Shown one piece after another: positions 23,751 to 58,238 of a stretch of 64,000 nt of DNA. The translations under genes and the position numbers were made by a program. The stretch comes from Streptococcus henryi DSM 19005 (GTDB taxonomy: Bacteria; Bacillota; Bacilli; Lactobacillales; Streptococcaceae). Location of the stretch: contig NZ_AQYA01000031.1 in assembly GCF_000376985.1 (NCBI RefSeq), positions 1 to 64,000 of the forward strand. The letters run 5' to 3'. Numbering within the stretch: the stretch's first letter is position 1; every line of letters starts with the position of its first letter. The notes under the pieces are model-generated. The model worked only from the letters and a program-made list of their open reading frames with translations. It ran no database searches and was not told the origin of the DNA.

Positions 23751-23820
23751 ACATTTCTCCATTATTCTTAAAAACAAACAGCAAGGATTGAAAAGCCTCC
23801 TTTCCAACCCTTGTCTGCAT

Positions 23821-40451: not shown

Positions 40452-42971
40452 TTATTTGCTAAGTAATGTAATTTCTTCAGTCAATCCAAATGGCTCAACC
40501 AGCAAATACTGGTTAAGTCCTCCACGGAAAACTGTTCCAAGGGTATTTGTCACCTCAATGCGAAGCTCATTCTCACCATCATGGAAAAGACCTGCAACAT
40601 CAAAGCGGTAAGGTGGGGCAATCTGAATCCCAGCTGACTGTCCATTGACAAAGACTTGAGCAATTTCATAGGCGTGGCCTAAATCCAATCCAATGATATC
40701 ACTGGCCTTGTCAAGGTTAACTGTCGCAGAATAAGCAACTGTTCCACTCTTGCGATCATAACCATCAAGGAGATTAATTGGTTTGAGAGCTGACATGGTC
40801 GTTACAGGCTCAAAGTTTGGATAGCTTTGCGCATCTGCCAAATCAACTTGCCAGTTTGCGCTTAATAGTAGCTCATGACTTGCTTGAACCTCCTCGTCAA
40901 GTTCGTTTTCTTCACCAAAGACCCAGACGATGGTTTGGTAGGGTTCTAAGACAAGTTGATTATCATTGACTACTTTAAAGCAATCCTTATAGGCATCATA
41001 GGCAATAGCTCTGCCCTGGTTACTTGCAAAGTTGACCTTAGTATTGACAGTCTCTGACAAGCTTTCATTGAAGAACATCCAATAATCTTTGCCATCTTTT
41101 TGATAGTGGTAATAAACTAATTCAGGGAATTCTTGATCTAATTGCAATTCTACATGAACTGCCATTTTTTGACTGAGTTCTTCCAGGGCCACCACTTCCG
41201 CCTGGCTATGAAGCTCTGCCTTGTTTTTAGGAAGGGCGTCAAGGAAGACAACTTGAATTCCAGCTGCCATAAGCTTGTTAAGGATTCCCATCACTTTTTC
41301 TGGAATGTACTCTGCATAAGGGACCACCAAAGCTTTAAAGTCATGCTGATTAATGGTCAATTTATCTGAAGAAAGCTCCGCTTTTTCCAAAAGATCGGCA
41401 CTAACAATATCAAAATCAATTTGTGCCTGGGTCAAAACCCGAGCAGGAACTTCGACCGGCATGTAGGCGCCAGCCCACTCAAACTCAGCAGGGTAAAAGA
41501 GTGCCACAGGAGCCTTGTGGTGGCCATCGCTAAAGAGGGTCATGAGGCGGTTCATGTAATCCGTCAATTGATTCATGTATCTAAACTGAGGATTGTTGCC
41601 ACGGGCATAAAAATGCGGTGGGCAATCCCAATCTGGGTAGTCTTTTGGACTAAAGGCATGGGGAACGATATAATTGATACCGCGGACAATCAGGTGGTCT
41701 GTAATCCATTTCATGGTTTTTAGACCCTCATTCCATCCATAAGCCCCGTAGGCTTCACACATGGCACGGCCTTTTTTATGAGGGTAGAGGTCCGCCTCTG
41801 AAGCACCCAATTTGGCAAGGGCATAGTGGTAAAACTGACCATCACTGCCCACTGATTGGAAGGAATCGTGGTGGTAATTCATACCTGGAACGACTTGACC
41901 GCCGATAACGTCAATTCCTGAAAAATGCTGGGCTTCTTGACCACGGAAGAAATGTCCAGCACCATATCCTAAGCGAGCATGGGCTCCATTATCCTCAATA
42001 TTGTGCCCCAAATAATCAAGGCCGTGAGCCTGACACCAGTCAGCTAGAACTTTTACAAAATTCTTATTGTATTCCTTAGTAATCAAGTCCATATAGGCAT
42101 AACGAACCTCACGCTCGGATTCATCAGCAGAAGGAACCCAAAGCAAAGGAAGGAGTGACTTGTCAAAAGCTAAATCCTTTTCAAGACCAGGTCGCCAAGG
42201 AAGGACCATATCAGGCTTGCCAATTGGTGCTTCTGACCCAGAAGCATTACCAAAACGAGGCTCATCTGAGAAAAATGCTGTAATGGTTGAACCAAAGTGT
42301 TCTCCAACATGGGCCAAATGCTTCTCATAAACTTCATCAACCAAAACCTGCGTCGCTTCAGCAACAAGTGGATTCAAGTAATCCTTGGTACTAGCTTCAC
42401 CACCTTCATGAGTTGAAAAGACGACAAAGACAGACCAATGTCCAGCAGGAATATCCAAATAGATGGTGTCGTCTTTGAAGGCGTCTGAAATATCAACCAG
42501 ACTAGTCATATCAATTGGGTCGCCAGATGTCTTGTAATCCAGATGGCGTTTAACCATGTAAACACCAATGACATCAATCATTTCAGTTTGTCCAGGCTCC
42601 CATGGACGACCTTTAAGCTGAGCGGCATCAATACGAGCGCCAGCCATTGGACCTACCACGTCAAAACGACGCATGGTTAGATATTGTTTAAGGTATTGAG
42701 GATAGTCCTCTTTCACTTTTCCATTAGCAAAGCCAGTTGGAAAATGAGAGTCATCAAGGACCCATATCTTCATATCCCGCTTTTGACACTCACGGATAAT
42801 AATACCTAGGTCTGTCCACCATTTATCCCCTACAAAATCAGGGTGGGGACGAGACTCAACACAAACAGCCTTCATTCCGGACTGATAGATTTTTTCAACG
42901 TATTCTACTAAAATTTCCTCTTCTTCTCCATGTTGCCAGAAGAATGGGAATAAATGATTAGAACTTTTCAT
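40452..42971 (-). CDS. Large putative glycoside hydrolase (GH106-like)
   Basis: 839 residues from MKSSNHLFPF; a GTG two codons earlier is an alternative, GAGG lies 5 nt before the ATG. The N-terminal two thirds resemble a TIM-barrel glycosidase of the GH106-like group of Firmicutes: WQHGEEEEILVEYVEKIYQSGMKAVCVE start, KIWVLDDSHFPTGFANGKV near 92, FSDEPRFGN near 238 and GHNIEDNGAHARLGYGAGHFFRGQEAQ near 330. The C-terminus has a beta-sandwich galactose-binding-like fold (IGLDLGHAYEIAQVFVNGQS, VEVTNTLGTVFR). Cytoplasmic. GH106 enzymes are alpha-L-rhamnosidases, but this branch is not characterised to my knowledge, so substrate is only suggested. Confidence 0.6.
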   Translation of the reverse strand: MKSSNHLFPFFWQHGEEEEILVEYVEKIYQSGMKAVCVESRPHPDFVGDKWWTDLGIIIRECQKRDMKIWVLDDSHFPTGFANGKVKEDYPQYLKQYLTMRRFDVVGPMAGARIDAAQLKGRPWEPGQTEMIDVIGVYMVKRHLDYKTSGDPIDMTSLVDISDAFKDDTIYLDIPAGHWSVFVVFSTHEGGEASTKDYLNPLVAEATQVLVDEVYEKHLAHVGEHFGSTITAFFSDEPRFGNASGSEAPIGKPDMVLPWRPGLEKDLAFDKSLLPLLWVPSADESEREVRYAYMDLITKEYNKNFVKVLADWCQAHGLDYLGHNIEDNGAHARLGYGAGHFFRGQEAQHFSGIDVIGGQVVPGMNYHHDSFQSVGSDGQFYHYALAKLGASEADLYPHKKGRAMCEAYGAYGWNEGLKTMKWITDHLIVRGINYIVPHAFSPKDYPDWDCPPHFYARGNNPQFRYMNQLTDYMNRLMTLFSDGHHKAPVALFYPAEFEWAGAYMPVEVPARVLTQAQIDFDIVSADLLEKAELSSDKLTINQHDFKALVVPYAEYIPEKVMGILNKLMAAGIQVVFLDALPKNKAELHSQAEVVALEELSQKMAVHVELQLDQEFPELVYYHYQKDGKDYWMFFNESLSETVNTKVNFASNQGRAIAYDAYKDCFKVVNDNQLVLEPYQTIVWVFGEENELDEEVQASHELLLSANWQVDLADAQSYPNFEPVTTMSALKPINLLDGYDRKSGTVAYSATVNLDKASDIIGLDLGHAYEIAQVFVNGQSAGIQIAPPYRFDVAGLFHDGENELRIEVTNTLGTVFRGGLNQYLLVEPFGLTEEITLLSK

Positions 42972-42994
42972 AAACACCTCATACTAAACTAGAA

Positions 42995-43038: not shown

Positions 43039-44400
43039 TTATTTCTTAGACTCTTCACCTGTACCAAATACTAAGTTGAGAATAATTGGTCCGAAGAAAG
43101 CGATAATTGAAGCAATTAAGAATGAATAGAAGCTCTTCATATTGCCGTCAGGTCCAATAAAGAGAGGGAAGGCAAAGAGACCACCGCCACCAAAGGCATA
43201 AGCTACCGCATGGTTAAATCCTTGAATAGCACCAGCAATACCACCAGAAATCATGGCATAGATAAACTGTCTGCGGTATGGAAGAGCAACTGAGTAAATA
43301 ATTGGTTCTGTAATACCAACTAGACCTGTTACCCCAACCGAGTAACCAAGTGATTTATTTTTAGGATTTTTTGTTTTCAAGGCAAATCCAATCGCTGCCC
43401 CTGCAAGTGCTGTTACGGTTACACTAAATACAGCGTTAAGTGGATCTTGTCCCAAGTTAAAAGTATTGTTAATCAAGATTGGTACAAAGGCATAGTGAAG
43501 ACCAAAGATAACCACCAATTGCCAGAAAGCACCACCGATGATACCAAAGAGAATTGGGCTGATACCATAAATAGCCATAACAACTGTCGCCAATGCATTT
43601 GACAACCAAGTCATGACAGGACCAATAGCAAGAAATGCCAAAGGTGCTGTAATTAAGAAGGTCAAGGCTGGTGTCAGCATCCAGTTAATGGTTTCATGGA
43701 TGTGTTTCATAAAGAATTTCTCAATTTTGGCTGCAACCCAAGCTGCAAGCATGGCTGGGAAGAGTGATTGCGTATAGTTAACTAGGACAATCGGAATACC
43801 AAAGAAACTGATGGCTTCTCCAGCTGACTGTAGCGCAACAATATCTGGATAAATGAGGGCTGCACCTAGAGCCGCACCAATGAATTGGTTTCCTCCAAAT
43901 ACCTTGCTGGCATTAAAACCAACCCAAATTGGAAGGTAATAGAAGAAAGCTTCTGAAATAGCATACCACACTTGATAAGCACCATCAGTTTCTGCTAAGA
44001 GACCAGCTGATAAAGCCAAGGAAACAAAAGCCTTGATAATACCGGCAGCAGCCATTACACCAAAGGTAGGTGACATGATACCAACGATGGCTTTAAAGAA
44101 GCGATTGAAAAGGTTGGTTTCTTTTTCCTCTACCACTTCCTCATCAACTTCAGGAGCTCCCATTACTGTCAAAAATTCTTTGTGTACATCAGGTACACTC
44201 ATTCCAATGATAATTTGATACTGTCCCCCTGAAAAGACCGAACCAGCAACCTTTTCCAAACTATCAACCTTCTCTTTGTCGACCGCTTTCTCGTCTTTTA
44301 AAACCAGACGAAGACGGGTTGCGCAGTGAGTTGCCCGTGTAATATTATCCTTACCACCTACAGCAGCAAGAATATCTGTAACTAATTGTTCGTAAGCCAT
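43039..44400 (-). CDS. PTS EIIBC permease of the glucose/beta-glucoside superfamily, no EIIA
   Basis: 453 residues. EIIB (1-85) with the phospho-Cys in RATHCATRLRLVL (Cys26) and the GMSVPDVHKEF end; EIIC (about 105-450) with many membrane segments and GITEPIIYSVALPYRRQ near 370. No EIIA domain. EIIA could come from the fused domain of the GPH symporter (23821) or EIICBA (9094). It lies between GH140 and the GH106-like enzyme, implying import with phosphorylation of a sugar or glycoside unit. It is 20 bp after the GH140 gene with AGGAGA before the ATG. Confidence 0.85.
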   Translation of the reverse strand: MAYEQLVTDILAAVGGKDNITRATHCATRLRLVLKDEKAVDKEKVDSLEKVAGSVFSGGQYQIIIGMSVPDVHKEFLTVMGAPEVDEEVVEEKETNLFNRFFKAIVGIMSPTFGVMAAAGIIKAFVSLALSAGLLAETDGAYQVWYAISEAFFYYLPIWVGFNASKVFGGNQFIGAALGAALIYPDIVALQSAGEAISFFGIPIVLVNYTQSLFPAMLAAWVAAKIEKFFMKHIHETINWMLTPALTFLITAPLAFLAIGPVMTWLSNALATVVMAIYGISPILFGIIGGAFWQLVVIFGLHYAFVPILINNTFNLGQDPLNAVFSVTVTALAGAAIGFALKTKNPKNKSLGYSVGVTGLVGITEPIIYSVALPYRRQFIYAMISGGIAGAIQGFNHAVAYAFGGGGLFAFPLFIGPDGNMKSFYSFLIASIIAFFGPIILNLVFGTGEESKK

Positions 44401-44420: not shown

Positions 44421-45707
44421 TTATTTTTGAATAATAAGCAGAGCATCTTTGGTAAAACGATGCATGTTCACTTGAGTTTGATTCTTTTCAGCAGCGTAAT
44501 GAGCTGTCGCAACCATCCTATCCTTGGACTCAAGATCCAGATAAGTCATCTGAGCATCCGTCAAGTCACCTGATAATTTAAGGGTGATGTTTGATGGAAT
44601 GTAGACCAGGATAAGTCTGTCATTTTGAGCAAGACGAATTTCTGATGTCTCATTTTGCAAAAGCTCTTGAGCTGGCTGCAAGTCAAATAAGTTTTGACTC
44701 TCAATGAAATCCTTGATAAAGGCATAATCCCATGCTCCTTTAAAATGCAGAGCATCATGCCAATCATAGGGACTTTCAAAGGCCTCGCCAACACTGGAAT
44801 CAAAGTCTAATTGACTATTGTGCCAAGACCAAATGCCGTGAGCTCCGTAGGTTAAGCCACTAGTGGCTCCCGATAAGACGCTCTGCCATGCCGCCTTGCG
44901 GACATCTTCCCTAGAAAAACGACCGTAGACACGGCGACTGTAGCCCATCATTTCATAACAAGGTTCAGAGTTGAGCAAGGGACGCTTGGGTTCCATTTGG
45001 TAGAAGCTTTCCGCTAACTGATAGCTCATCTCCTTGAACTCGCTATTATGTCCCGATTGGAACATATAGAAATCTAAATTAGGATTTTCTTTTATAGCCT
45101 TAGGCAAATCGGCCTCACGACCACGAATATGGAAGGTCGTCACCGCATGAGGATTATTGTTCTTAACACTGTCAAGGGCAGTATTATAGTAGTCCTCAAT
45201 GACCTCATCCGTTTGAAAATCTGTATCTCCGCTAATGACATAGATAGGATTATACTTGTCAAAAAGATTCATGACCTTATCGACATAAGATTTCACTTTA
45301 TCTTTTGGAAAAATTCCTAATTGCTTAATGGGAATCTGGCTGGCCCAGGTGTCTGGAACATAATTAGCCCATAGTAGAACTAGGGCAATGGTCATGCCCT
45401 TACTGTAGGCTCTTTCAAACATGTACTCAGCCCGTTTAAAATAGGTGTCATTGTAGCTGCCAAAATTAAAGCTTCCATCTGCATGGACTTCAAAAGGCTT
45501 CATATCAAGTTCTGTCTGACTAGCATCCCATTGCTGCAACATGTTGACTTGTAAAACATTAAAGCCCTGCGATTTGCGGTAATCTAGATAATAATCCCAA
45601 TCTTTGTCATCGATATTGGTAAAAGCTGACCAACAGGTGTCCGCTAGGTAAAATGCAGCTTTTCCATCTTTTTCAAAGTGACGCTGATTCTTTGCTATTT
45701 GAAACAT
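44421..45707 (-). CDS. GH140 / DUF4038-family glycosidase
   Basis: 428 residues from MFQIAKNQRHF (AGGAG 5 nt upstream). DUF4038 TIM barrel: FYLADTCWSAFTNIDDKDWDYYLDYRKSQGFNVLQVNML near 20-60, VISGDTDFQTDE near 155 and RPLLNSEPCYEMMGYSRRVYG near 243, carrying the Asp and Glu candidates for catalysis, plus ATSGLTYGAHGIWSWHN near 285. The characterised GH140 enzyme is a beta-apiosidase of rhamnogalacturonan-II; this protein has no signal peptide, so it acts on an imported small glycoside. First gene of the operon divergent from the AraC gene at 45870. Confidence 0.75.
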   Translation of the reverse strand: MFQIAKNQRHFEKDGKAAFYLADTCWSAFTNIDDKDWDYYLDYRKSQGFNVLQVNMLQQWDASQTELDMKPFEVHADGSFNFGSYNDTYFKRAEYMFERAYSKGMTIALVLLWANYVPDTWASQIPIKQLGIFPKDKVKSYVDKVMNLFDKYNPIYVISGDTDFQTDEVIEDYYNTALDSVKNNNPHAVTTFHIRGREADLPKAIKENPNLDFYMFQSGHNSEFKEMSYQLAESFYQMEPKRPLLNSEPCYEMMGYSRRVYGRFSREDVRKAAWQSVLSGATSGLTYGAHGIWSWHNSQLDFDSSVGEAFESPYDWHDALHFKGAWDYAFIKDFIESQNLFDLQPAQELLQNETSEIRLAQNDRLILVYIPSNITLKLSGDLTDAQMTYLDLESKDRMVATAHYAAEKNQTQVNMHRFTKDALLIIQK

Positions 45708-45720
45708 GCTACTCCTTTCC

Positions 45721-45790
45721 AAGATTACTTCTTAGTTTAAATCAAATATCATTTTTTTGTTTTTCTTTATCCAAGATTATTTCTTATTTC
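45721..45790. promoter_or_regulatory. Direct repeats in the GH140-AraC intergenic region
   Basis: AAGATTACTTCTTAGTTT (45721-45738) and AAGATTATTTCTTATTTC (45773-45790) are direct repeats 52 bp apart, about five helical turns. AraC-type regulators bind such direct repeats, so these are candidate sites for the product of the gene at 45870. Confidence 0.5.
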
Positions 45791-47001: not shown

Positions 47002-47652
47002 CTATCTTTTAAAAACTTTTTCAATCTTCTCCAAAGTCACATCTTTAGTTGTCTCAAAGCGTGCCTTAGCATGATTTAGTTCAGGTCCGCCTACTCCGAT
47101 TGATACTATTCCTGCTGTGTTGATAGCAGTTATACCTGCAACTGAGTCTTCTAGACCAACACATTCTGATGGAAGCAAGTCTAATTGTCGAGCTGCTGCT
47201 AGGAAAATATCTGGGGCAGGCTTTCCTTTTCTCACTTCTGAGGGGTCTACAATGGCATCAAAAACATGAGCTAGGCCTAATTTATCCAGAATAATTGGAC
47301 CATTCTTACTGGCTGATGCCAAGGCTAGTTTAAGGCCTTTTGACTTACAGTCATCAATTAAAGATTTAATCCCAGGTAGGATATCTGTTTCTGTCATTGT
47401 AGTTAAAGATTGAAGGTAAAGTTGGTTTTTTTCAATAGCTAAAGCTTCAAATTCTTCCTCAGAAATATCTATCTTGAGGTAGCTTAAAATAGCTGTTAAG
47501 GAATCCTCGCGACTAACCCCTTTGGTTTTCACTTCCAATTCATCTGGTAAGTCACAATTGAAATGCTTTTTAATGAGCTGTCTCCATGCACTAAAGTGAT
47601 AGACAGCAGTATCAGCAATAACACCATCTAAATCAAATAAGATTCCCTTCAT
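47002..47652 (-). CDS. pgmB: Beta-phosphoglucomutase (HAD family)
   Basis: 216 residues. Interconverts beta-D-glucose 1-phosphate and glucose 6-phosphate. HAD marks: FDLDGVIADTAVYH (Asp7 nucleophile, Asp9 acid/base), cap segment KTKGVSREDSL near 42 with the Arg-Glu-Asp of beta-PGM, ALASASKNGP near 112, and VGLEDSVAGI near 166 with the metal-binding Glu-Asp. Last gene of GPH-GH3-GH78-pgmB, starting one base after the GH78 stop. Beta-PGM normally follows an inverting disaccharide phosphorylase; here no GH65 is present, so the NagZ-like GH3 of this operon is a candidate source of beta-glucose 1-phosphate. Confidence 0.88.
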   Translation of the reverse strand: MKGILFDLDGVIADTAVYHFSAWRQLIKKHFNCDLPDELEVKTKGVSREDSLTAILSYLKIDISEEEFEALAIEKNQLYLQSLTTMTETDILPGIKSLIDDCKSKGLKLALASASKNGPIILDKLGLAHVFDAIVDPSEVRKGKPAPDIFLAAARQLDLLPSECVGLEDSVAGITAINTAGIVSIGVGGPELNHAKARFETTKDVTLEKIEKVFKR

Positions 47653-47653
47653 C

Positions 47654-50257
47654 TCAAACCACCTTATCTTGGATCTGTGACTGACCAGCTTCTAAATCAC
47701 GAATACTACCGTCTGACAAGACGAAGTGTGCTTTTGTGCGAACAGGTAAGTCAATGGTTACAGTCACAATATCACCTTCAATTTTCCAGCTAACATTCAG
47801 GTTCCCATTAGGAGTTTTCAAACCACCTTTTATCCAGTCCAGCTGCTTAGTATAATGAGGTTGAATCTTATAGGTATCAGTTACATCATCCACTTCTGGT
47901 AAGTTAATACCTAAGATTTTTTCAACAACAAAATCTTGTACAGAGCCATATGCATAATGATTTAGACTATTCATACCTGTTCCACTAATGCTTCCGTCAG
48001 GCAAGATAGAATCCCAACGTTCCCAAGTAGTGGTTGCTCCCATGTTTACTTCAAATAGCCAGCTTGGAGCTGCTTCTTTAAAGAGGAGTTCAAAAGCTTC
48101 AGTCCTCAAGCCATTTTCCAAAAGGGCATGTGGCAAAGCTGGCGTTCCTGCAAAACCTGTTGTTAGAAAGCCATCGTGCTCTGCCATTTTTTCTTGCAAT
48201 TTTTGGCTTAGAGCTTCTTGGGCTCTTTGGCTTGGATAAAGGCCATAGCGGAGCAAAAGTGCCAGTCCTGTTTGGGTATCGATAGCTGTTGGAATTTGAA
48301 CACCTCCGTAAGATTGAGCCATCTGCTGACGCATGAGTTCAACCTCAGATTGAAGCGTGACAGGAGTTAGGTTAAGCTCGTCTTCTATGAAATAGGTCTC
48401 CAAAATAGCTTGCTTAACCTGATTAGATAATTCATGATAGAAACTAGCTCTGCTATCACCCAAAACAGCCAAAGCTTGAGCAGTATAAGTAGCAGAAATA
48501 TAATAATAAACACTTGCAATAAGAGAGGAATCTGTAGCTCCAAAAACAGAACCAGCAATACCTGAATCCAGGGCTAACCAGTCGCCTAATTGCCAGCCAA
48601 AGTCCCAAAGTCTCCTTCCACCACGCGCCTGGTCTTGTTCATAAATATAATCCACCCAGTCTGTCATGGCATCAATATGCTGAGCAAGAAGCCCTTTGTC
48701 ACGGAAGTGTTTGTAAAGGGTGTAAGGAAGAACCGTACCAGCATCTCCCCAGACTGCAGCTCCTGCTGAAGCTAAAAATGGATTTAAGCCTTCTTGTGGA
48801 GCAATCTTAGGATAAGGCGCAAAGAAAGGAACAGCACCCTTCAATTCTTTTTGCTCGAGTCGAAGGTTCTTCATAAAATGTCCCAAAAAAGCTCTGGTTT
48901 CCATATTATAGGAGGCAGTATTAGCGAAGACTGTGATGTCCCCAGTCCAGCCCATACGTTCGTCGCGCTGTGGGCAGTCAGTTGGAATACTAAGGAAATT
49001 ATCCCTCTGACTCCAACGGATATTACTCAATAACTGATTGAGTTTCGCATGTGAGGAATTGAAGGTAAAGGTCCCATCCATCTTACTTTGAAGGGCTTGA
49101 GCTGTAAATTTCAGAGCTTCTTCCTCAGACAAGCCTGTAACCTTGACATAACGGAAGCCAAAGAAAGTAAAGTGAGGTCGAATCTGACGCTCTTCCTTAT
49201 TATTTCGGATGATAAATTCCTGCTTTGCAGTCCGAAGATTATCGATATAAAAAGCGCCATCTTGTAAGACTTCAGCAAATTGGAAACTAACATTGGATTT
49301 ATCAGCAGGTAGAGGCCCACTAATCCAACCTGTGATTTCTTGACCAAAATCAAGAATCAAATCTCCCTTGGAATCAAAGAAGGCACGTGCTTTCAAGGTT
49401 TCAGCAACCTCCACTGGCAAATCAAGTCGTGCTGTTAATAGTTCTTTTCCCGCCTCTTCAACTACTGTTGTCAACTTTTGAATTTTAGCGGCGTAGTCTA
49501 TAGTCTCACCATCATAGATAGCATTTTCTTGGGTATGATTGCTTCTTGTCAACCAAGTGCCATCAGTTACAATGACATCGTCGCTACCATCTTCATAAGC
49601 TATATGGAGTTCGGCAATAAGTTTTTGCTTATCTCCATAAATATTTTCAAAACCACCTTCAAAAACAAAACGTCCGCGATACCAACCATCACCAACCAAA
49701 AAGGTTAAGTCTGTATCTGCCTCTAAATAATCAGCCACATCATAGGTCTGATATTGTTTCATTAAATCATAACTGTGATATCCTGGCGTTAGGTATTCAT
49801 GACCGACTTTTTCTCCATTAATTTCTAACTCGTAAAGACCTAAAGCAAGCGTATAAAGTCGGGCACTTTTAATAGCTTTTGAAAAATGTAATACTTTTGA
49901 AAAGCTAACACTAGCTAGACTCTCTTCCTCATATGAAATCCAGTCTGCTTGCCACTCTTCGTCCATTTTTGCCGTTTCAAACCAACTTCTAGCACTGCTA
50001 TTCCCAGCTGATACACGCCAAAAATATCTGCTGCGAGGTTTTAAAAATTCAGCTTCAGTTGACAAATTATTAAAACTGCTATCAGTTTCACCTTGCCAAA
50101 GAATGTTTTGGAAGTCTGCATCCTCTGAAACATCAACCGAGAATGAAAGAGTGTCTGGCACAGTTGCAGCCTCTAAATCCCAAGAAAATGTTAAATAGTC
50201 AAACTGGTAACCAAGCGGTTCATTGATACCATTAACCTTTAAATTACTTATCTTCAT
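47654..50257 (-). CDS. GH78 alpha-L-rhamnosidase (second copy)
   Basis: 868 residues from MKISNLKVNG, with GGAGG 9 nt upstream; the frame continues ten codons further but without a site. It overlaps the GH3 gene end by 14 bp. Same plan as the GH78 at 21027: YELEINGEKVGHEYLTPGYHSY, LVGDGWYRGRFVFE, catalytic region DCPQRDERMGWTGDITVF near 440, GATTTWERWDSILPDG near 735 and SLNHYAYGSVQDFV near 760, with beta-sandwich at the end. It lacks the helical tail of the first copy. Cytoplasmic. Operon position between a GH3 and beta-PGM suggests a rhamnosyl-glucoside substrate. Confidence 0.9.
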   Translation of the reverse strand: MKISNLKVNGINEPLGYQFDYLTFSWDLEAATVPDTLSFSVDVSEDADFQNILWQGETDSSFNNLSTEAEFLKPRSRYFWRVSAGNSSARSWFETAKMDEEWQADWISYEEESLASVSFSKVLHFSKAIKSARLYTLALGLYELEINGEKVGHEYLTPGYHSYDLMKQYQTYDVADYLEADTDLTFLVGDGWYRGRFVFEGGFENIYGDKQKLIAELHIAYEDGSDDVIVTDGTWLTRSNHTQENAIYDGETIDYAAKIQKLTTVVEEAGKELLTARLDLPVEVAETLKARAFFDSKGDLILDFGQEITGWISGPLPADKSNVSFQFAEVLQDGAFYIDNLRTAKQEFIIRNNKEERQIRPHFTFFGFRYVKVTGLSEEEALKFTAQALQSKMDGTFTFNSSHAKLNQLLSNIRWSQRDNFLSIPTDCPQRDERMGWTGDITVFANTASYNMETRAFLGHFMKNLRLEQKELKGAVPFFAPYPKIAPQEGLNPFLASAGAAVWGDAGTVLPYTLYKHFRDKGLLAQHIDAMTDWVDYIYEQDQARGGRRLWDFGWQLGDWLALDSGIAGSVFGATDSSLIASVYYYISATYTAQALAVLGDSRASFYHELSNQVKQAILETYFIEDELNLTPVTLQSEVELMRQQMAQSYGGVQIPTAIDTQTGLALLLRYGLYPSQRAQEALSQKLQEKMAEHDGFLTTGFAGTPALPHALLENGLRTEAFELLFKEAAPSWLFEVNMGATTTWERWDSILPDGSISGTGMNSLNHYAYGSVQDFVVEKILGINLPEVDDVTDTYKIQPHYTKQLDWIKGGLKTPNGNLNVSWKIEGDIVTVTIDLPVRTKAHFVLSDGSIRDLEAGQSQIQDKVV

Positions 50258-51890
50258 GCTGGAGTTCCTCCAAAATATCATTTTCACAAAAGGGATTCAC
50301 AGGACTAATCCCTTTAAAATCACTGTCACCTGTTAATTTAGCAATGGCCGCCTCGATAAAGTGATCATAGTTACAGTAGGCATTGACAACAGTATCAACC
50401 ATGGGTAAATCAAAAATATGATAAGGATTGCCAAAACTAATCAGAGCTGTAGGAATTTCTTTGACAAACCAAGGTAAATTATTTCCCAAGCCAAAAAGTG
50501 TATGCCAATTAATACGAGCGACGGTTTGATTGCTAGCATTTTCAACATTGGCAACATAGAGAACCGCATCATATTTGCTAGAAAAGTCACCTACTGTATC
50601 TAAATCCCAGAAATTAGTTTCTGGCTCGTAGAGACTAACATCAAATCCACGGTTCTCTAGCTCCGCCTTTACCTTCTTAGACACACGTGCATTAGATTCA
50701 AAACTTCCAAGAATTTGAACTAAAAGGTGTTTTTGCTTATCAGCTGATAACGGTAAAAGTGCTTGCTCATCTTTGACAAGGGTCACAGAGCGGTCTGCTA
50801 AATCTTCTTGCTCGGCAGTGTAATCTTCAAAACTTGCTGTACCATGATCTACAGTCTTATGCAAGCCAAGGGAAGCTTTAGCCGCTAAGATTCTAGTAAC
50901 TGCCTCATCCAGTCTTTCATGTGTTAGGATACCATTTTTGAGACCATCTTTCATAAATTGAACATCTTCTTCAAAGACACGATTGAAGAGCAGCATATCA
51001 CATCCTGCTTGGATGGTATAAGGTACTGCTTGACTGCGTTTCATAGCAGAGCAGAAGCCAACCATGGGGCTAGCATCTGTTATGGTCAAACCATTGAAAC
51101 CCAAATCCTCACGAAGAAGATTATTCAAAAGTTTGGAACTAAGTGTTGCTGGCATATTGTCTCCTGAATAAGCAGGAAATGCAATATGACCAATCATAAC
51201 AGCTTTAGAGCCAAAGCCAATTAACTCCTGGTAGACTTTTCCAAAAGTCTTCTTCCATGCCTCTACGGATAATGTATTCACAGACGTTAATAAGTGCTGG
51301 TCTCGCTCATCAACACCATCCCCAGGAAAATGCTTGATAGAAGTCATAAGATTATTCTCATGAAAGGCACGAATGTATTCTTTAGCATTAGCAATAACGT
51401 GTTCAACGTTGCTGCCATAAGTACGTACATTTGTAATGGGATTTCTAAAATCAAAATCTAAATCAACAACGGGTGAGAACCCCCAATTGACACCAACCGC
51501 TTTTCCATCACGCGCAGCGATTTTACCCAATGTATAGGCATCCTTGGCATCACCTGTAGCAGCGACCGCCATTTGACGACCATAGGCTGTCGCTTCAAAA
51601 GCAGCACCATTGCCGCCATCTTCTAAGTTTGCCGTTGTCAAAAGTGGAACTTTGCTTTTCTTTTGGATATAGCTGTAAGTCTCCTGAACCTCCTTGGCTT
51701 CCCCAGGTCGGAAAAAGAGGCCACCAATGTTGACTGAGGCAAGGTGATCAAGATAAGCAGTTTCTGTAGAATAACCAATTGGCAAAAAAAGCTGCCCAAT
51801 TTTTTCATCTGTCGTTAAACTATCACGTGTGTCTGCAACCCAAGCGATTGCTTCATCATCTAAATAAAATGGATTTCCCTTTAAATTCAT
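50244..51890 (-). CDS. NagZ-like GH3 enzyme with Asp-x-His dyad (possible phosphorylase)
   Basis: 548 residues from MNLKGNPFYLD; AGGAGACGAA precedes this ATG and 13 upstream in-frame codons lack a site. Two domains (barrel about 1-340, sandwich about 355-548). Motif SIKHFPGDGVDERDQHLL holds the Asp197-x-His199 pair that marks the NagZ branch of GH3, and LTITDASPMVGF holds the nucleophile Asp272. No fibronectin-III domain, unlike the two other GH3 proteins here. NagZ-type GH3 enzymes using His as acid/base include phosphorylases (Nag3 of Cellulomonas fimi). Being cotranscribed with GH78 and beta-PGM, it could release beta-glucose 1-phosphate; hydrolysis of GlcNAc glycosides is the alternative. 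Confidence 0.8.
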   Translation of the reverse strand: MNLKGNPFYLDDEAIAWVADTRDSLTTDEKIGQLFLPIGYSTETAYLDHLASVNIGGLFFRPGEAKEVQETYSYIQKKSKVPLLTTANLEDGGNGAAFEATAYGRQMAVAATGDAKDAYTLGKIAARDGKAVGVNWGFSPVVDLDFDFRNPITNVRTYGSNVEHVIANAKEYIRAFHENNLMTSIKHFPGDGVDERDQHLLTSVNTLSVEAWKKTFGKVYQELIGFGSKAVMIGHIAFPAYSGDNMPATLSSKLLNNLLREDLGFNGLTITDASPMVGFCSAMKRSQAVPYTIQAGCDMLLFNRVFEEDVQFMKDGLKNGILTHERLDEAVTRILAAKASLGLHKTVDHGTASFEDYTAEQEDLADRSVTLVKDEQALLPLSADKQKHLLVQILGSFESNARVSKKVKAELENRGFDVSLYEPETNFWDLDTVGDFSSKYDAVLYVANVENASNQTVARINWHTLFGLGNNLPWFVKEIPTALISFGNPYHIFDLPMVDTVVNAYCNYDHFIEAAIAKLTGDSDFKGISPVNPFCENDILEELQHEDK

Positions 51891-51911
51891 TTCGTCTCCT
51901 TTGTAAAAATC

Positions 51912-51945
51912 ACAAGGGAGTGTGTCCACGACCCAACTCCCTTGT
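51912..51945 (-). terminator. Intercistronic hairpin after GPH symporter gene
   Basis: ACAAGGGAGT and ACTCCCTTGT form a perfect stem. The following T-run on the minus strand is short, so it may act as a partial terminator or mRNA stabiliser between transporter and GH3. Confidence 0.5.
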
Positions 51946-51950
51946 TAACA

Positions 51951-53339
51951 TTAATCTTGGTCATCACCATGATGACGGGCTTGAATTTCTTTAACAATTT
52001 GTGGCAAGTTTTTGTCTAAATCATAGAATAGCATCAATACAATTGATAAAACTGATAAAATAATTGGAATGTAGGCAAAGACTGCTTTGATAGCAAAGAT
52101 GGTTGCTACTGACTGAGTAGCTGCACCAGCTACATAACCACCAATTGACATGACAACACCAAGAATCAAACCACCAATACCTGAACCAACCTTTTCACCA
52201 AAGGTTGCTGCTGAGAAAATCAATCCATCTGAACGAATACCAGTTTTCCACTCACCGTAGTCTGCAACGTCACCTAGCATAGCAAATCCTGCTACTGCAC
52301 CTGGTGCAATTCCCAATCCGCGGATTACTAAGCCCACAATCACCATTGAAAAGTTAGTTGGGAAAAGAGCAATGATACCTGTTCCAATAAGCATGACAAT
52401 ATTTCCTAAAATCATTACTGCACGTTTTGAAAGTTTAGCCATGATAAAGGGAACAATTAGACTTCCAGCAATAATTGGAGCAAAAGAAAGCATCCCAATA
52501 ATTGCGACTTTTGACACATCTCCCAAGATATACTGAGCATAGTAGATGTTAATACCACCGAGACCTGACACAATAAAGCTGATAAGCATGGTCAAAATAA
52601 GAATAACCCAGTATTTATTTTGGAATAGAGCTTTGATATTATCTTTAGTTGAAACTTTATGGGCTTGATCTGCTCCAAGAGCTTCACTAGTTTCAAGAAC
52701 ACGTTCATTTGAATTTTTATAAAGAACAGTCAGAAGAACAACGGATACAAGGGCAAAGGTGGCAGCCATTTTGGTCCATGAAGAAGCTGCTGTAACTTGG
52801 CCAAAACTTTCTACGATTTTAAGCACAGCCCCATTAACTAAGAAGGCACCACCAAAACCAAATAGGGTACGAGAAGTTGAAAGGTAACCACGCTCTTTTG
52901 AATCAGAGCTGGTTGTCCCCATCAGGGTGTTATAGGGTACCATGGTCATTGTGTAGACACCAGCAAGTGCTATAACATAGGTGATAAAGGCATAGATAGC
53001 TTTCATCCCTTCAGGCAAGAAGGATGGTGAGGTGAAAAGTAAAACAAGGGCCAAGGCGTAAGGAATAACCATGCGCTTAATCCAAGGGCGAGCCTTACCT
53101 GTCGCTGTCGCTGTTCTGTCAACAACCGCTCCCATAAAGAGATCTGATACGCCATCAAAGACACGGGCAAATAGAAGGATAGATCCAACGACACCCATAG
53201 TTAAACCAACGACATCTGTGTAGAAATAGGTAATGAAACCATTAGCTGTGGTAATCATGAGATTGGCTGCAAGATTACCAAAACCAAAGGTAACTTTTTC
53301 ACCTAAAGGAACTTTAGTTGTTGAAGTATTTTTAGTCAT
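51951..53339 (-). CDS. GPH-family glycoside:cation symporter
   Basis: 462 residues, 12 predicted membrane helices, no EIIA domain. GPH marks: VTFGFGNLAANLMITTANGFITYFYTDVVGL start, FDGVSDLFMGAVVDRTATATGKARPWI loop near 60-86, GDVADYGEWKTGIRSDGLIFSA near 355 and a C-terminal helix pair ending YDLDKNLPQIVKEIQARHH. Heads the operon with the NagZ-like GH3, GH78 and beta-PGM, so it likely imports an intact rhamnosyl-glucoside by cation symport. Divergent from the AraC gene at 53469. AAAGGAA precedes the ATG. Confidence 0.88.
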   Translation of the reverse strand: MTKNTSTTKVPLGEKVTFGFGNLAANLMITTANGFITYFYTDVVGLTMGVVGSILLFARVFDGVSDLFMGAVVDRTATATGKARPWIKRMVIPYALALVLLFTSPSFLPEGMKAIYAFITYVIALAGVYTMTMVPYNTLMGTTSSDSKERGYLSTSRTLFGFGGAFLVNGAVLKIVESFGQVTAASSWTKMAATFALVSVVLLTVLYKNSNERVLETSEALGADQAHKVSTKDNIKALFQNKYWVILILTMLISFIVSGLGGINIYYAQYILGDVSKVAIIGMLSFAPIIAGSLIVPFIMAKLSKRAVMILGNIVMLIGTGIIALFPTNFSMVIVGLVIRGLGIAPGAVAGFAMLGDVADYGEWKTGIRSDGLIFSAATFGEKVGSGIGGLILGVVMSIGGYVAGAATQSVATIFAIKAVFAYIPIILSVLSIVLMLFYDLDKNLPQIVKEIQARHHGDDQD

Positions 53340-53402
53340 GCTTGTGCATTCCTTTCAAAGTTATGTTTTAAAGCGCTTTTATAAGATTATTTTACACTTT
53401 GA

Positions 53403-53439
53403 AGTAATCGTTTACAATGCATTAAAGATAGGTTATAAT
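53403..53439. promoter_or_regulatory. Divergent promoters with cre-like site, GPH operon and AraC gene
   Basis: Rightward: TTTACA (53411-53416), 17 bp, TATAAT (53434-53439). Leftward on the minus strand: TTGTAA, 17 bp, TAAAAT. Both -35 boxes fall in or beside the minus-strand TGTAAACGATTACT (53416-53403), cre-like with the GAT deviation seen at 20163 and 58259. One bound protein could shut both promoters. A second symmetrical AAAGCGCTTT is at about 53370. Confidence 0.65.
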
Positions 53440-53468
53440 GAACTATCTACAGATTATTGAGGAATTTT

Positions 53469-54473
53469 ATGAATCTAAGTGAACTTGAAACCTACCTCCA
53501 CCATATTAATATTTTTGAAAAAAAACAAAGAGAAACGGGAATCTCTCAAAATGATATTCCTATCTTAGATAGCTCAAAAAAGGATTATTCATATATAGAT
53601 CCCGTCCTTAATATCGTGCGTTTCCCAAAATCTGTTTTCTTCACTCAGGGAAATAATATATACATCAGCCGTCATAACCGCTTTGCTCCTATGATTGAAC
53701 ACATTCATGATTTTATTGAAATGACCTATGTCTATTCTGGACAGTGCACTCAGAACATTAATGGTAAAAAAATTAAACTCCATCAAGGAAGCTTCTGCGT
53801 TCTTGATCGTGACGTCCCCCATTCTATTGAAGCTCTCGGAGAAGAAGACATCTTGATTAATATCTTGATTAATGAGGAGACCTTTTCTTCACTTTTTCTA
53901 CTAAAGCTTCAAAACACAACTAATCTACTAGCAAACTTCCTAGCAGATGCCTTCAACCAAGAAGCCAAGCACAATCAATTCATTATCTTTGAGGCCAAAG
54001 AAAGCTCCCTTATCCATAATCAGATTCAGCTCATGCTTTGCGAATACTGGTCTTACAAAGCTCAAGGAAATGAATTTCTGTCACACTATCTAGAGCTAAT
54101 CCTTATGGAATTAATGCGAATTTATAGCCAAGAAACTTATCGTTTAAATAGTACGAACCATTTTAATTATGCTAAAATCCTCAATTATATAGACCAACAT
54201 TACCAAGATTTAAAACTTGAAAAATTAGCTAAAGAATTTGGCTATAACAGCAATTACCTTAGTAACAAGTTAAAGCGAAGCACGGGAAAAAACTTTCAGG
54301 AAATTCTTCTAGAAAAGAGACTCCTTATTGCCTGCGACTTACTCTCTAACACTAATTTATCCTTGGAAGAAGTCTCTTTTGAATCAGGCTTCAACTCCAG
54401 CAGTTATTTCTTCAGACAATTTAAAAAGCATTACCAATGTACGCCATCTGAATACAGAAAGAATCAACACTAA
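53469..54473 (+). CDS. AraC-family regulator with cupin sensor domain, probable rhamnose regulator
   Basis: 334 residues from ATG 53469 with GAGGAATTTT before it (an in-frame TTG four codons upstream is discarded). Cupin-like sensor (about 75-135: NRFAPMIEHIHDFIEMTYVY, GKKIKLHQGSFCVLDRDVPHSIE) and AraC domain (about 232-332: LEKLAKEFGYNSNYLSNKLKRSTGKNF, LEEVSFESGFNSSSYFFRQFKKHYQCTPSEYRK). It sits between the GPH-GH3-GH78-pgmB operon (divergent) and rhaBAD (convergent), the best-placed candidate for a rhamnose-responsive activator of both. Terminator at 54473-54498. Confidence 0.86.
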   Translation: MNLSELETYLHHINIFEKKQRETGISQNDIPILDSSKKDYSYIDPVLNIVRFPKSVFFTQGNNIYISRHNRFAPMIEHIHDFIEMTYVYSGQCTQNINGKKIKLHQGSFCVLDRDVPHSIEALGEEDILINILINEETFSSLFLLKLQNTTNLLANFLADAFNQEAKHNQFIIFEAKESSLIHNQIQLMLCEYWSYKAQGNEFLSHYLELILMELMRIYSQETYRLNSTNHFNYAKILNYIDQHYQDLKLEKLAKEFGYNSNYLSNKLKRSTGKNFQEILLEKRLLIACDLLSNTNLSLEEVSFESGFNSSSYFFRQFKKHYQCTPSEYRKNQH

Positions 54474-54519: not shown

Positions 54520-55341
54520 TTACAAATCCAAGAATCCTTCATGAGGGGTCATGCCAAAGAATTCTGCGATTTCTTGGAGTTCTTGGTCTGTGATTTCTTG
54601 TTTGATAACACCACCTTGAGCTCCTACTTGTGAGAAGATCATGGCTGCTTTTTCGATAACTTCAACAAGACCATAAGTTTCATCAAGGGTTACACCTGAA
54701 GCGAAGAGACCGTGGTGTGGCCAAAGCACCGCTTGGAACTCAGACATTTTCTCAGAGGTTGCAACACCAATTTCATTAGTCCCTGGTGTCATGTAAGGAA
54801 TCACACCGATACCTTCTGGGAAGACAACAATAGATTCAGCCTGCATTTTCCAAAGGATACGAGACAGATGACGTTCTTCTAGAGGCTGTGTAAAGCTCAT
54901 AGCTATCAAGTTAGTTGGGTGGCAATGGAAGACCACGCGCTGATTAGGGTTAACCTTGAGGCGTCCAATGTGGCTCATAAGGTGACTTGGAAACTCAGAA
55001 GTTGGTTTACCACCATCTTCAAAGCCCCAAACAACATCATAGCTTTGACCATCTGCAGAAATCTTAACCAATCCAAGATCAAGTGTTGGACGAGCATAAA
55101 CATTACGGAAGTAACGACCAGTACCCGTTACAAGGTAGTAGTAGCCAGCTAGAGCTGAGGCATCAAAACCAAGTTCATAAGTAGCTGAGACCTCAGTCAC
55201 ATCCTCGTAGACTTCAACTTCCTCTGCTAGAAGACGGTAAGAAACATTACCACCGTTACGCTCATCCCAATAACGAAGATAAGATTCACGCGTCACTTCA
55301 CGCATATTAGTTACATAAGGAGAATCAATAAATTTTGCCAT
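54520..55341 (-). CDS. rhaD: Rhamnulose-1-phosphate aldolase RhaD
   Basis: 273 residues from MAKFIDSPYVT, as usual for RhaD. Zinc class II aldolase splitting L-rhamnulose 1-phosphate into DHAP and L-lactaldehyde. Marks: WDERNGGNVSYRL near 26, VTGTGRYFRNV near 70, metal ligands in VVFHCHPTNLIAM near 135 (His-x-His) and LWPHHGLFASG near 200. A TTG five codons upstream is in frame, but ATG is preferred. No normal Shine-Dalgarno is next to the ATG; the AGAAAGGAATT lies about 100 nt upstream, beyond a hairpin also found before leuS. Third gene of rhaB-rhaA-rhaD. Confidence 0.93.
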   Translation of the reverse strand: MAKFIDSPYVTNMREVTRESYLRYWDERNGGNVSYRLLAEEVEVYEDVTEVSATYELGFDASALAGYYYLVTGTGRYFRNVYARPTLDLGLVKISADGQSYDVVWGFEDGGKPTSEFPSHLMSHIGRLKVNPNQRVVFHCHPTNLIAMSFTQPLEERHLSRILWKMQAESIVVFPEGIGVIPYMTPGTNEIGVATSEKMSEFQAVLWPHHGLFASGVTLDETYGLVEVIEKAAMIFSQVGAQGGVIKQEITDQELQEIAEFFGMTPHEGFLDL

Positions 55342-55450
55342 AATATCAGATACCAAGGCCGACCAGAAGGTGACTGAAAAATAGGAAACGCAACCAAGAT
55401 ACTTGCATCTATTTTCCGAGCCTTCCGGTCGGGTTCAATTCCTTTCTTTT
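55342..55450 (-). promoter_or_regulatory. Conserved hairpin leader element upstream of rhaD
   Basis: Minus strand: AGAAAGGAATTGAACCCG, then a stem CCGACCGGAAGG pairing with CCTTCTGGTCGG (55432-55421 with 55370-55359, one G-U), an inner paired loop, then CCTTGGTATCTGATATT directly before the ATG. Both flanks recur before leuS (63261-63376). No T-run and no T-box consensus. Confidence 0.65.
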
Positions 55451-55519: not shown

Positions 55520-56785
55520 TTATGCACGTTTGCTCAAAACATCTTTTTCATATTGACGAACTTCAGCCAACCAATCTTCTCCGACTGGCACACCCTTAGT
55601 CAAGCAATAGTAATCCCAAACCGCACCAAATGGGAAAGATTTATACTCTTCAACAAGAGCCAAACGAGCTGTCAAATCACCTTCAGCTTCAGCTGCTTTA
55701 AGGTCTTCAAGCGGTGTCAAGAAGGATTGAAGCAAGGCTTTTTGAGTATTGCGAGTTCCGACAACATAAGCCGCTACACGGTTGATGGTTGCATCAAAGA
55801 AGTCAAGACCAATATGAGTTGTCTTAATCAAGTCATTGTAAACCAAGGCATTGGTAATGTTACGGAGCATATCATCCGCAATAACAACGTGGTCAGAATC
55901 CCAGCGCATTGGACGAGAAACATGGAGGTATAGACCTTGATTGAAAGGAGCTACTGCTGCAAATTTATCACCAGGATCTTCAGTCGGATGGAAGTGACCT
56001 GAGTCAATTGTCCAAAGGATGCCACGACTCATGGCATAAGAAAGATAAAATTCATGAGTCCCAACAGTGTAGGCTTCCACACCTGTACCAAAAAGTTTCC
56101 CTTCAACAGCATCCAAGGTATTTTCAGCAGGATAGTCCACTTCACGCGCCTTGTCCAAAGCTTCCATCAAACGTTTACGTGGTGACACACGGTCAATTGG
56201 ATTGTCTTTGTAACCATCTGGAATCCAAATATTGTTACAAGAAACAATGCCAGTTTCTTGACCAAAGTAGTTAGAAATCTCACGCACACGACGAAGATGT
56301 TCAATCCAAAACTCCTGAACTTCAGGGTCAGCTGATGAAAGTGTGAAGCCTGACTCAGCTTTTGGATGTGAGAAGAAAGTCCCATTGAAGTCCAAACCTA
56401 GACCACGTTCCTTAGCCCACTCAACCCATTTGGCAAAGTGTTTTGGCTCAATTTGATCAAGATCAATTGGCTCATCAGATTCCCCATAAATAGCATGAAG
56501 ATTAACCTTGTGGGTACCAGGAATCAGACTCAAGGCCTTATCCAAGTCTGCACGAAGCTCATCAGCATTACGAGCCTTACCAGGATAGTTACCTGTTACA
56601 GAGATAGTCCCTGACAACTCTTGATCTGGGAAAAGAGACCCATTGATGTCATCACCCTGCCAGCAGTGCATTGAAATTCTCACCTTGTCCAAGGCCTCAA
56701 TAGCCTTATCAACATCTACCCCGATACCTGCGTATTGCTCTTTAGCAATTTCATAAGCTTTTTGTACAGTTTCTGCATTTCTCAT
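55520..56785 (-). CDS. rhaA: L-rhamnose isomerase RhaA
   Basis: 421 residues, the usual size. Converts L-rhamnose to L-rhamnulose in the cytoplasm using Mn or Zn. Marks: ISMHCWQGDDINGSL near 37, SVTGNYPGKARNADELRADL near 62, HKVNLHAIYGES near 96, LGLDFNGTFFSHPKAESGFTLS near 132 and WTIDSGHFHPTEDPGDK near 255 with metal-binding residues. Second gene of rhaB-rhaA-rhaD; 10 bp after the rhaB stop, AGGAGA before ATG. Followed by about 180 bp holding the hairpin leader of rhaD. Confidence 0.96.
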   Translation of the reverse strand: MRNAETVQKAYEIAKEQYAGIGVDVDKAIEALDKVRISMHCWQGDDINGSLFPDQELSGTISVTGNYPGKARNADELRADLDKALSLIPGTHKVNLHAIYGESDEPIDLDQIEPKHFAKWVEWAKERGLGLDFNGTFFSHPKAESGFTLSSADPEVQEFWIEHLRRVREISNYFGQETGIVSCNNIWIPDGYKDNPIDRVSPRKRLMEALDKAREVDYPAENTLDAVEGKLFGTGVEAYTVGTHEFYLSYAMSRGILWTIDSGHFHPTEDPGDKFAAVAPFNQGLYLHVSRPMRWDSDHVVIADDMLRNITNALVYNDLIKTTHIGLDFFDATINRVAAYVVGTRNTQKALLQSFLTPLEDLKAAEAEGDLTARLALVEEYKSFPFGAVWDYYCLTKGVPVGEDWLAEVRQYEKDVLSKRA

Positions 56786-56795: not shown

Positions 56796-58238
56796 CTAAA
56801 ATACTGTTTTTTGATATTGTTTTAAATGATCCCTATCTGCAATAGGCTGTGGCTCATAGCGACTTAATTCTTGGTTTTGGCTAAGCCAATGGCGAGCTTC
56901 TTTCAAATCTTTCAACTCACCAGATGTCAGCATCTGCACCATAATATTGCCCAGAGCTGTCGCTTCGCCCGGACCAGCAACAACTGGTTTGCCGATAACG
57001 TCCGCCGTCAATTGGTTAAGCAATTTAACATTGCTGCCGCCTCCGACAATATGGAGTACTTCCAGCTCACGACCTGTCAAGCGCTCCAAAACCTTCCATT
57101 CATGAGCGTAAGCTAGTGCTAGGTTAGAATAGACACACATGACCAGCTCACCCACGGTCTCAGGAACGATTTGATTGCTTTCACGGCAAGCTGCCTGGAT
57201 CTCTTCAATCATATTGTCAGGATTGGTGAAGCGGTCATCGTTGAGGTTGATGTATTGTAAGAATGGTTCAACCTGATAGGCCTGCTCTGCCATTTCCGCA
57301 AAAGAATACTGATAATCCAGCATACGAGCAATTTCTTGTACGGCCCACATACCTGTAATGTTTTTGAGGAAGCGGTAGGTTTTGTAAGCTCCCCACTCAT
57401 TAGTGTAGTTCTCCGCAAAGGCTGCTTCAGTGGCCATAGGCTTGTCATTTTCTACCCCAATCAGAGACCAAGTGCCACTTGAGAGATAAGCCCAGTTGTC
57501 AGTCGTGGCAGGAACACCAACGACCGCAGAACCTGTATCATGAGTCGCTACTGCTATGACTTGAGCTTGAGGCAAGTCGTAGCTGTCATAAAGTTCAGGT
57601 AAGATTTGACCGATGACTTGACCCGTTTCAATCAGCTCAGGCAGTTTATCCCCTGATATACCTGCCACATCCAGCAAGTCCTTGTCATAGGCACGGCTAT
57701 GAATGTTAAGATACTGAGTGGTTGAGACATTGGTTACCTCACCAACCTTTTTACCAGTCAAACGATAGGCAAGATAGTCTGGAATGAGAAGAATGTCCTT
57801 GGTTTTTTCAAGCAAGTCTCTATCTTCAGCGTAGAGTTGGTAGAGAGTGTTAAAATTCAAAAATTGAATACCTGTTTTACTATATACTTCCTCTTTAGGA
57901 ATTTTAGCAAAAACCTGATCCATGACCCCTTGAGTTCTAGCATCGCGGTAAGCAACTGGCTCAGCCAGCAACTTACCCTCCTCATCTAAGAGGACATAGT
58001 CAACTGCCCAGGTATCAATACCAATGGTACAGTTATCAATACCCGCTGCCTTAACCTTTTCAAGTCCTTTTAAAATTTCCTCAGTCAGCTGTGTGACATT
58101 CCAACGGTCATGACCGTCTATTTTAGAAAAACCATTTTTAAAACGGTGTAATTCAGTTAATGTCAGGCCATTGCTAGTATCAGCTAAGATGACACGACCA
58201 CTTGATGCACCGATGTCAATTGCTACATGATAAGTCAT
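56796..58238 (-). CDS. rhaB: Rhamnulokinase RhaB
   Basis: 480 residues. FGGY-family kinase phosphorylating L-rhamnulose at O-1. Marks: VAIDIGASSGRVILAD at residues 5-20 (phosphate-1 loop), HDRWNVTQLTEEIL near 43, GIDTWAVDYVLLDEEG near 73 (catalytic Asp), VATHDTGSAVVGVPA near 230 and LHIVGGGSNVKLLNQLTADV near 392. First gene of rhaB-rhaA-rhaD, with a cre-like site in its promoter; GGTGGTAAGG precedes ATG. Confidence 0.96.
   Translation of the reverse strand: MTYHVAIDIGASSGRVILADTSNGLTLTELHRFKNGFSKIDGHDRWNVTQLTEEILKGLEKVKAAGIDNCTIGIDTWAVDYVLLDEEGKLLAEPVAYRDARTQGVMDQVFAKIPKEEVYSKTGIQFLNFNTLYQLYAEDRDLLEKTKDILLIPDYLAYRLTGKKVGEVTNVSTTQYLNIHSRAYDKDLLDVAGISGDKLPELIETGQVIGQILPELYDSYDLPQAQVIAVATHDTGSAVVGVPATTDNWAYLSSGTWSLIGVENDKPMATEAAFAENYTNEWGAYKTYRFLKNITGMWAVQEIARMLDYQYSFAEMAEQAYQVEPFLQYINLNDDRFTNPDNMIEEIQAACRESNQIVPETVGELVMCVYSNLALAYAHEWKVLERLTGRELEVLHIVGGGSNVKLLNQLTADVIGKPVVAGPGEATALGNIMVQMLTSGELKDLKEARHWLSQNQELSRYEPQPIADRDHLKQYQKTVF

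Follow-up and report, generated by a model that had tools for sequence, protein, structure and literature searches.

In the 64,000-nucleotide stretch of Streptococcus henryi DSM 19005 analyzed here (the window; contig NZ_AQYA01000031.1, positions 1 to 64,000), a glycoside hydrolase family 3 (GH3) protein is encoded in a unit that also carries a GPH-type symporter and a GH78 alpha-L-rhamnosidase and that ends with pgmB, a beta-phosphoglucomutase gene. Judged from sequence and gene order, this GH3 protein is predicted, with a probability of roughly 0.8, to be a phosphorylase that feeds pgmB. The symporter would import a small glycoside bearing both alpha-L-rhamnose and beta-glucose, GH78 would hydrolyze the alpha-rhamnosyl bond, and the GH3 enzyme would form a beta-glucosyl-enzyme on Asp272, aided by an Asp197/His199 dyad, and pass the glucose to phosphate, not water. 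The resulting beta-glucose 1-phosphate would be turned by pgmB into glucose 6-phosphate without ATP, saving one ATP, and the rhamnose would go to RhaBAD.

The gene unit and its surroundings

An earlier note, made from the DNA letters, had described four tightly packed genes on one strand, and ORF and profile checks recovered all four on the minus strand in the order and families given there (Table 1). The symporter and GH3 genes are separated by 60 bases, GH3 and GH78 share 14 bases, as they also do in locus L046, and GH78 and pgmB lie one base apart. The longest ORF of GH78 opens with a GTG at 50287, its likely start being the ATG at 50257; the protein is an alpha-L-rhamnosidase by its set of five GH78 domains. 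The last gene is a beta-phosphoglucomutase, as claimed, both by its score above the TIGR01990 cut-off and by Asp7, Asp9, Lys144, and Asp169, invariant in 41 sequences, and the nearly invariant Glu168, which we take to be the HAD catalytic residues. GH3, GH78, and pgmB, read by eye, lack a signal-peptide-like start, so the chemistry should be cytosolic.

Table 1. Features of the unit and of the neighboring plant-glycoside island, with the matches that support them
Feature	Position	Strand	Matches or remarks
Symporter-EIIA fusion with second GH78	21027-25740		plant-glycoside island
Classical GH3, two copies	27761-30028, 36828-39281		plant-glycoside island
BD-FAE esterase-like	39445-40383		plant-glycoside island
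GH106-like	40452-42977		plant-glycoside island
Beta-glucoside-type PTS IIBC	43039-44400		below its family cut-off
Apiosidase-like	44421-45722		plant-glycoside island
pgmB, beta-phosphoglucomutase, 216 aa, last gene of unit	47002-47652	-	TIGR01990 234.7 bits, cut-off 189.4; 1LVH E 8.4e-55
GH78 alpha-L-rhamnosidase	47654-50257	-	five GH78 Pfam domains; PDB matches 6gsz (3.1e-103), 3w5m, 6i60
GH3, 548 aa from ATG, BglX clade, predicted retaining beta-glucoside phosphorylase	50244-51890	-	PF00933
GPH-type cation symporter, 462 aa, first gene of unit	51951-53339	-	PF13347 4.2e-83; TIGR00792 328 bits, cut-off 231 (MFS_2/GPH)
Divergent intergenic region, unit/AraC gene	53340-53456	.	promoter-like sites on both strands
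AraC-family regulator, cupin + HTH, divergent from unit	53457-54473	+	PF12833, PF02311
rhaD, rhamnulose-1-phosphate aldolase	54520-55356	-	NF002963 367 bits, cut-off 170; TIGR02624 390 bits, slightly below cut-off 401
rhaA, L-rhamnose isomerase	55520-56785	-	TIGR01748 639 bits, cut-off 585
rhaB, rhamnulokinase	56796-58238	-	TIGR02627 624 bits, cut-off 528

The position of the divergent AraC gene makes it the likely regulator of the four-gene unit. The region between them contains a plus-strand promoter-like site, TTTACA-17-TATAAT (53411-53439), and a weaker 9-of-12 site on the minus strand (53417-53389), in a whole-window scan that found 20 such sites against 14.9 (sd 4.0) in shuffles. Three cre patterns were tried and none matched in this region. 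A terminator scan returned none 3′ of pgmB, although the letters there do show an inverted repeat with T after it. The rhaD, rhaA, and rhaB genes lie beyond the AraC gene, close to the unit. Further AraC genes occur in the island (window positions 20000 to 46000), whose GH106-like, second GH78, classical GH3, apiosidase-like, and esterase-like genes indicate that the window points to plant glycosides. Lactobacilli carry rhamnosidase units made of GPH, GH78, and AraC genes; the window unit has the symporter, GH78, and AraC in common with these and adds the predicted GH3 phosphorylase and pgmB.

Recurrence of the GH3 gene with GH78 and pgmB

A motif scan yielded at least 575 encoded relatives of the GH3 protein, and the loci of the best 80 were examined, the ranking having been made on GH3 similarity with context disregarded; locus counts use all ORFs, longest-ORF calling hiding GH3 or pgmB in several loci. 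Among these best 80 of at least 575 relatives, GH78 genes of two types were present in 50 loci, often adjoining GH3, and 30 loci were without GH78 of the two types counted. The link to GH78 is real but less universal than that to pgmB described below. The recurring adjacency of GH3 and GH78 supports a substrate common to both enzymes that bears alpha-rhamnose and beta-glucose, although it does not indicate the order of the cuts. Transport in the same 80 loci was represented by GPH symporters in 7, a second GPH-like cluster in 2, and a ribose-type ABC transporter in 49, each cluster's family being assigned from a single representative. In L114 (1388-3814) and 24 other loci, a GH39 domain is joined to an AraC regulator (clustered, with one representative annotated); the fusion is perhaps a glycoside-sensing regulator.

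A rhamnosyl-glucoside is a fairly probable substrate of the unit, and the chances that GH78 acts before GH3 are about even. A less probable course, which we rate as possible but doubtful, has the GH3 phosphorylase act first on beta-glucosyl-rhamnose, from gellan-like or other bacterial polysaccharide oligosaccharides, after which GH78 would free the rhamnose. A Bacillus reportedly breaks down gellan using an alpha-rhamnosidase and an intracellular beta-glucosidase, which speaks for this course, as do the recurrent neighborhood of GH3 and GH78 and the double GH3-GH78 cassettes found in L046 and L126 (two per unit) and in L047 (two on opposite strands), insofar as they bear on a shared substrate and not on order. 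Weighing against it, the surroundings look like a plant-glycoside island, with apiosidase-like, GH106-like, esterase-like, and beta-glucoside-type PTS genes, and no polysaccharide lyase was present among the 25 window proteins scanned.

The pairing with pgmB was found in most loci. Among the best 80 of at least 575 relatives, pgmB was present within about 10 kb of GH3 in 59 loci and absent from 21, some of which end early; the members of the pgmB cluster all lie on the GH3 strand (58/58), 43 of the 58 within 300 bases. Of the 46 loci among these 80 whose flanks reach 9 kb or more on each side, 36 had pgmB, 33 had GH78, 28 had both, and 10 were likewise without pgmB. All 41 pgmB proteins scanned matched TIGR01990 by E value (1e-10 or better). 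By comparison, NagZ-type GH3 controls had pgmB in 0/17 loci and GH78 in 0/17, some of these loci having flanks under 9 kb and three being 13 to 14.5 kb long in all. The GH3-pgmB pairing that the earlier note proposed to check is conserved across genomes (59/80 of the best 80 of at least 575 relatives, versus 0/17 NagZ-type controls), and related operons do not lack pgmB as a rule (59/80, and 36/46 with long flanks). In L120 (8217-9698), pgmB and an N-terminal SMP-30/gluconolactonase-like part share one 493-aa frame; this pgmB is counted among the 59 loci and lies outside the 58-member cluster. Another locus, L082, is filed under a Muribaculaceae MAG and has a Bacillota-like pgmB-GH3-GH78 order, which may reflect transfer or a misbinned contig.

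To place these counts against other GH3 genes, 30 genomes were taken from the loci, 23 of them chosen with pgmB in the locus and 7 without. pgmB was found within 10 kb of 33/65 GH3 genes of the BglX clade (defined below) versus 1/88 classical GH3 genes, and the lone classical case is a broken fragment that is also the neighbor of a BglX-type GH3. The other 32 of the 65 were without pgmB within 10 kb, with subtypes and contig ends pooled. Of the 46 pgmB genes in the 30 genomes, 31 were near a BglX-clade GH3 and 10 near a GH65; none had both neighbors and 5 had neither, a split indicating that pgmB has two usual partners, the second being BglX-clade GH3. By chance, pgmB would be expected in fewer than 1% of such stretches (46 above-cut-off pgmB genes over the roughly 129 Mb of the 30 genomes). 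The pairing counts span related, hence not independent, genomes, so that the Fisher values computed for them are too favorable.

The first partner, GH65, is missing from the organism that carries the window. The earlier note had stated that no GH65-type phosphorylase lay nearby; the result is stronger, in that no match at E 0.001 was found in the whole S. henryi assembly, and none at this threshold in 7 further genomes. Across 147 genomes of the genus, a GH3 like that of the window (E 1e-40, at least 40% identity) was present in 24, and 12 pgmB genes above the cut-off were distributed over 11. The GH65 search matched 46 of the 147 genomes, 44 of them over the nominal cut-off; 42 short matches, of 25 to 31 bits inside ORFs of at least 819 aa, were set aside as not GH65, although the nominal cut-off is passed by 40 of them. 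Full-length GH65 (338 to 406 bits) was left in 4/147 genomes, with pgmB within 3.5 kb of it in all 4. The other 7 pgmB genomes, that of the window included, have no GH65, and their 8 pgmB genes are near a GH3 with Gln between the dyad residues (D-Q-H), one of them, in G023, being beside the unit but on the opposite strand. Where pgmB is kept and no GH65 exists, another source of beta-glucose 1-phosphate is needed. To our knowledge, GH65 is the other known source of this compound. Pairs of GH65 and pgmB serve maltose, trehalose, and kojibiose pathways, GH65 being inverting on alpha-glucosides. From a beta-glucoside, a retaining enzyme yields the beta anomer and an inverting phosphorylase the alpha anomer. 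The GH65 systems (4/147 genus genomes) and the window unit have in common the same mutase and the closeness of phosphorylase and pgmB; unlike GH65, which is absent here, the window GH3 would be retaining on beta-glucosides and yield the same beta anomer.

Most GH3 enzymes are hydrolases, and the extent of phosphorylase activity among those with a His/Asp dyad was debated. The window GH3 might accordingly be an ordinary intracellular beta-glucosidase, with pgmB present for another reason; a 2022 review (PMC8950772) counts only two characterized GH3 phosphorylases, Nag3 and BglP. This alternative appears improbable, considering that the 7 genus genomes without GH65 still keep pgmB near GH3, that classical GH3 genes are rarely by pgmB (1/88 in the 30 genomes), and that the closest solved relative, BglX, is named and, in the same review, treated as a phosphorylase. 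Phosphorolysis by the window GH3 is rated as very likely.

Several consequences would follow from a phosphorylase feeding pgmB. Through the pairing, GH3 phosphorylases acquire a partner enzyme and a probable place in physiology, and sequence combined with gene order would let many more of them be predicted, given at least 575 encoded relatives. Many of the records of the best 80 of these relatives have titles naming gut or rumen bacteria, so ATP-free recovery of glucose from rhamnosylated glycosides may be common there. The rule that pgmB without GH65 points to a GH3 phosphorylase lends itself to direct testing, and beta-glucoside synthesis is a possible use of these enzymes. A 2021 study by Franceus deals, by its title, with the evolution of phosphorylases in GH3. 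No title or abstract opening among the papers listed in the literature searches describes the GH3-pgmB pairing, although the Franceus study and those of Macdonald (2015, 2018) may mention pgmB, and the passages of PMC8950772 that deal with phosphoglucomutase make no link to GH3. On the basis of the review and the literature search, we take the window GH3 as a new BglX-type member and the pathway as a new variant: the enzyme type is known, and the pgmB-linked rhamnosyl-glucoside route was not found described in the literature searched.

Placement of the GH3 protein

A PDB sequence search identified BglX (5VQD) as the closest solved relative of the window GH3, with E 5.8e-122 over nearly the full chain, the next solved protein following at 2.2e-43; identity to BglX is 43% over the full length. 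BglX (PDB 5VQD and 5VQE) is called BglP in papers and is described in PMC8950772 as a beta-glucoside phosphorylase of family GH3 that came from a metagenome of mine tailings. An AlphaFold model of the window GH3 (pLDDT 94.6), made from its own sequence together with 35 locus proteins, matched 5VQE with Z 57.0 and 1.7 Å over 527 residues, and the best structural match outside BglX was YbbD (Z 49.1). Among the matches listed, the closest GH3 from a named organism was that of S. porci (81% identity), to which L126, a locus from a genome of the window's genus, has 84 to 88% DNA identity over the unit.

The catalytic residues agree with this placement. In an alignment with BglX and 15 relatives, the window GH3 keeps Asp197, His199, and Asp272; the nucleophile, Asp272, is invariant in 17 and in 36 aligned sequences, and the GH3 catalytic domain itself is matched (PF00933). 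The Asp197/His199 pair, present exactly as claimed from the letters, stands in place of Glu and is invariant in the alignments, and its meaning as the GH3 acid/base dyad is taken from PMC8950772. The same dyad is shared by the aligned YbbD and 6k5j and, according to that review, by Nag3 of Cellulomonas fimi. The claimed lack of a fibronectin-III domain also held, with no Fn3-like and no PF01915 match at E 0.001. The window GH3 thus falls outside the classical GH3 beta-glucosidases, whose GH3_C and fibronectin-III-like domains went unmatched in Pfam at E 0.001, whereas both classical GH3 proteins of the window do match these domains. BglX and the window GH3 are alike in full-length homology, fold, dyad, nucleophile, and the D-Q-H sequence (Asp197-Gln198-His199). 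They were compared as proteins alone: BglP acts on cello-oligosaccharides and aryl glucosides (PMC8950772), whereas the window GH3 sits in a rhamnosidase-pgmB unit.

In a GH3 tree of 104 of 142 rows, built by a quick method under LG+G4 with YbbD, 6k5j, and Nag3 outside the row set, the window GH3 grouped with the known phosphorylase BglX in one 57-row clade (SH-aLRT 98), BglX being flagged among long branches that meet. Of these 57 rows, 40 are D-Q-H proteins with pgmB in the locus. A branch with SH-aLRT 99 separates the 18 NagZ-type rows from the rest. The earlier assignment of the protein to the NagZ branch is imprecise: its place is in the BglX clade, which neighbors the NagZ-type enzymes. 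The residue between the dyad members is Gln in 103, His in 12, and Pro in 7 of the 122 BglX-clade rows and Ser, Ala, or Thr in the 17 NagZ-type control loci, and the window GH3 has KHFPGDG...RDQH versus KHFPG[H/R/K]G...D[S/A/T]H in those loci. A Gln-to-Ser change in BglP reportedly swaps glucoside for GlcNAc preference, and this Gln would correspond to that of D-Q-H.

A NagZ-like function for the window GH3, as a hydrolase or a phosphorylase of N-acetylglucosaminides, is very improbable: a dyad common to NagZ and a distant similarity to YbbD and 6k5j would suit it, but the motif differs from that of the 17 NagZ-type loci, which also form a separate clade and have no pgmB near, and pgmB and GH78 as partners fit glucose, not GlcNAc. 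NagZ beta-N-acetylhexosaminidase was rejected as an identity, with KHFPGDGVDERDQHL set against the KHFPGHG...D-S-H motif and the protein outside the NagZ-type clade, and a GlcNAc phosphorylase was judged unlikely. Given phosphorolysis, we have strong confidence that the sugar is glucose rather than GlcNAc.

Sister subtypes and their HAD partner

A second BglX-clade subtype, mostly with R-D-H-H and in some cases with T/K-EERDQH, lies beside a HAD protein in L132 to L145 (for example, L139:7360-12571). The HAD has a DxD motif and no NCBIfam match and sits inside glucuronate operons, which in L139 encode beta-glucuronidase, glucuronate isomerase, UxuA, mannonate oxidoreductase, and KDPG aldolase, the other loci being assigned by clustering. 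A PDB sequence search with it gave no clear match; its model resembles phosphoglycolate phosphatases and beta-phosphoglucomutase (Z 15 to 17.5). The HAD occurs in 20/147 genus genomes, and these 20 together with the 7 non-GH65 pgmB genomes are exactly the 24 genomes that have a GH3 like that of the window.

The partnering with HAD proteins suggests, at the level of gene neighborhoods, that phosphorolysis may extend across the BglX clade. We tentatively consider, at somewhat less than even odds, that the clade is a whole beta-glycoside phosphorylase family with each subtype wired to its own HAD: in rhamnosyl-glucoside units across Bacillota the D-Q-H proteins would pair with pgmB, and in glucuronate operons the sister subtype would pair with a HAD whose substrate would be beta-glucuronate 1-phosphate or something similar. 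If so, phosphorolysis would be a widespread intracellular use of plant and host glycosides. The HAD was the immediate neighbor of 11/12 D-H-H rows, the twelfth, from Paenibacillus, having pgmB, and of 4/7 T/K-EERDQH rows. The 95 other D-Q-H rows had as immediate neighbor the HAD in 2, pgmB in 45, GH78 in 29, and none of these in 19. A third subtype, D-P-H, is the second GH3 of the unit in L055, L058, L066, L108, L119, L122, and L123; the fit is looser in these rows, the immediate neighbor being the HAD in 1/7 and pgmB in 5/7.
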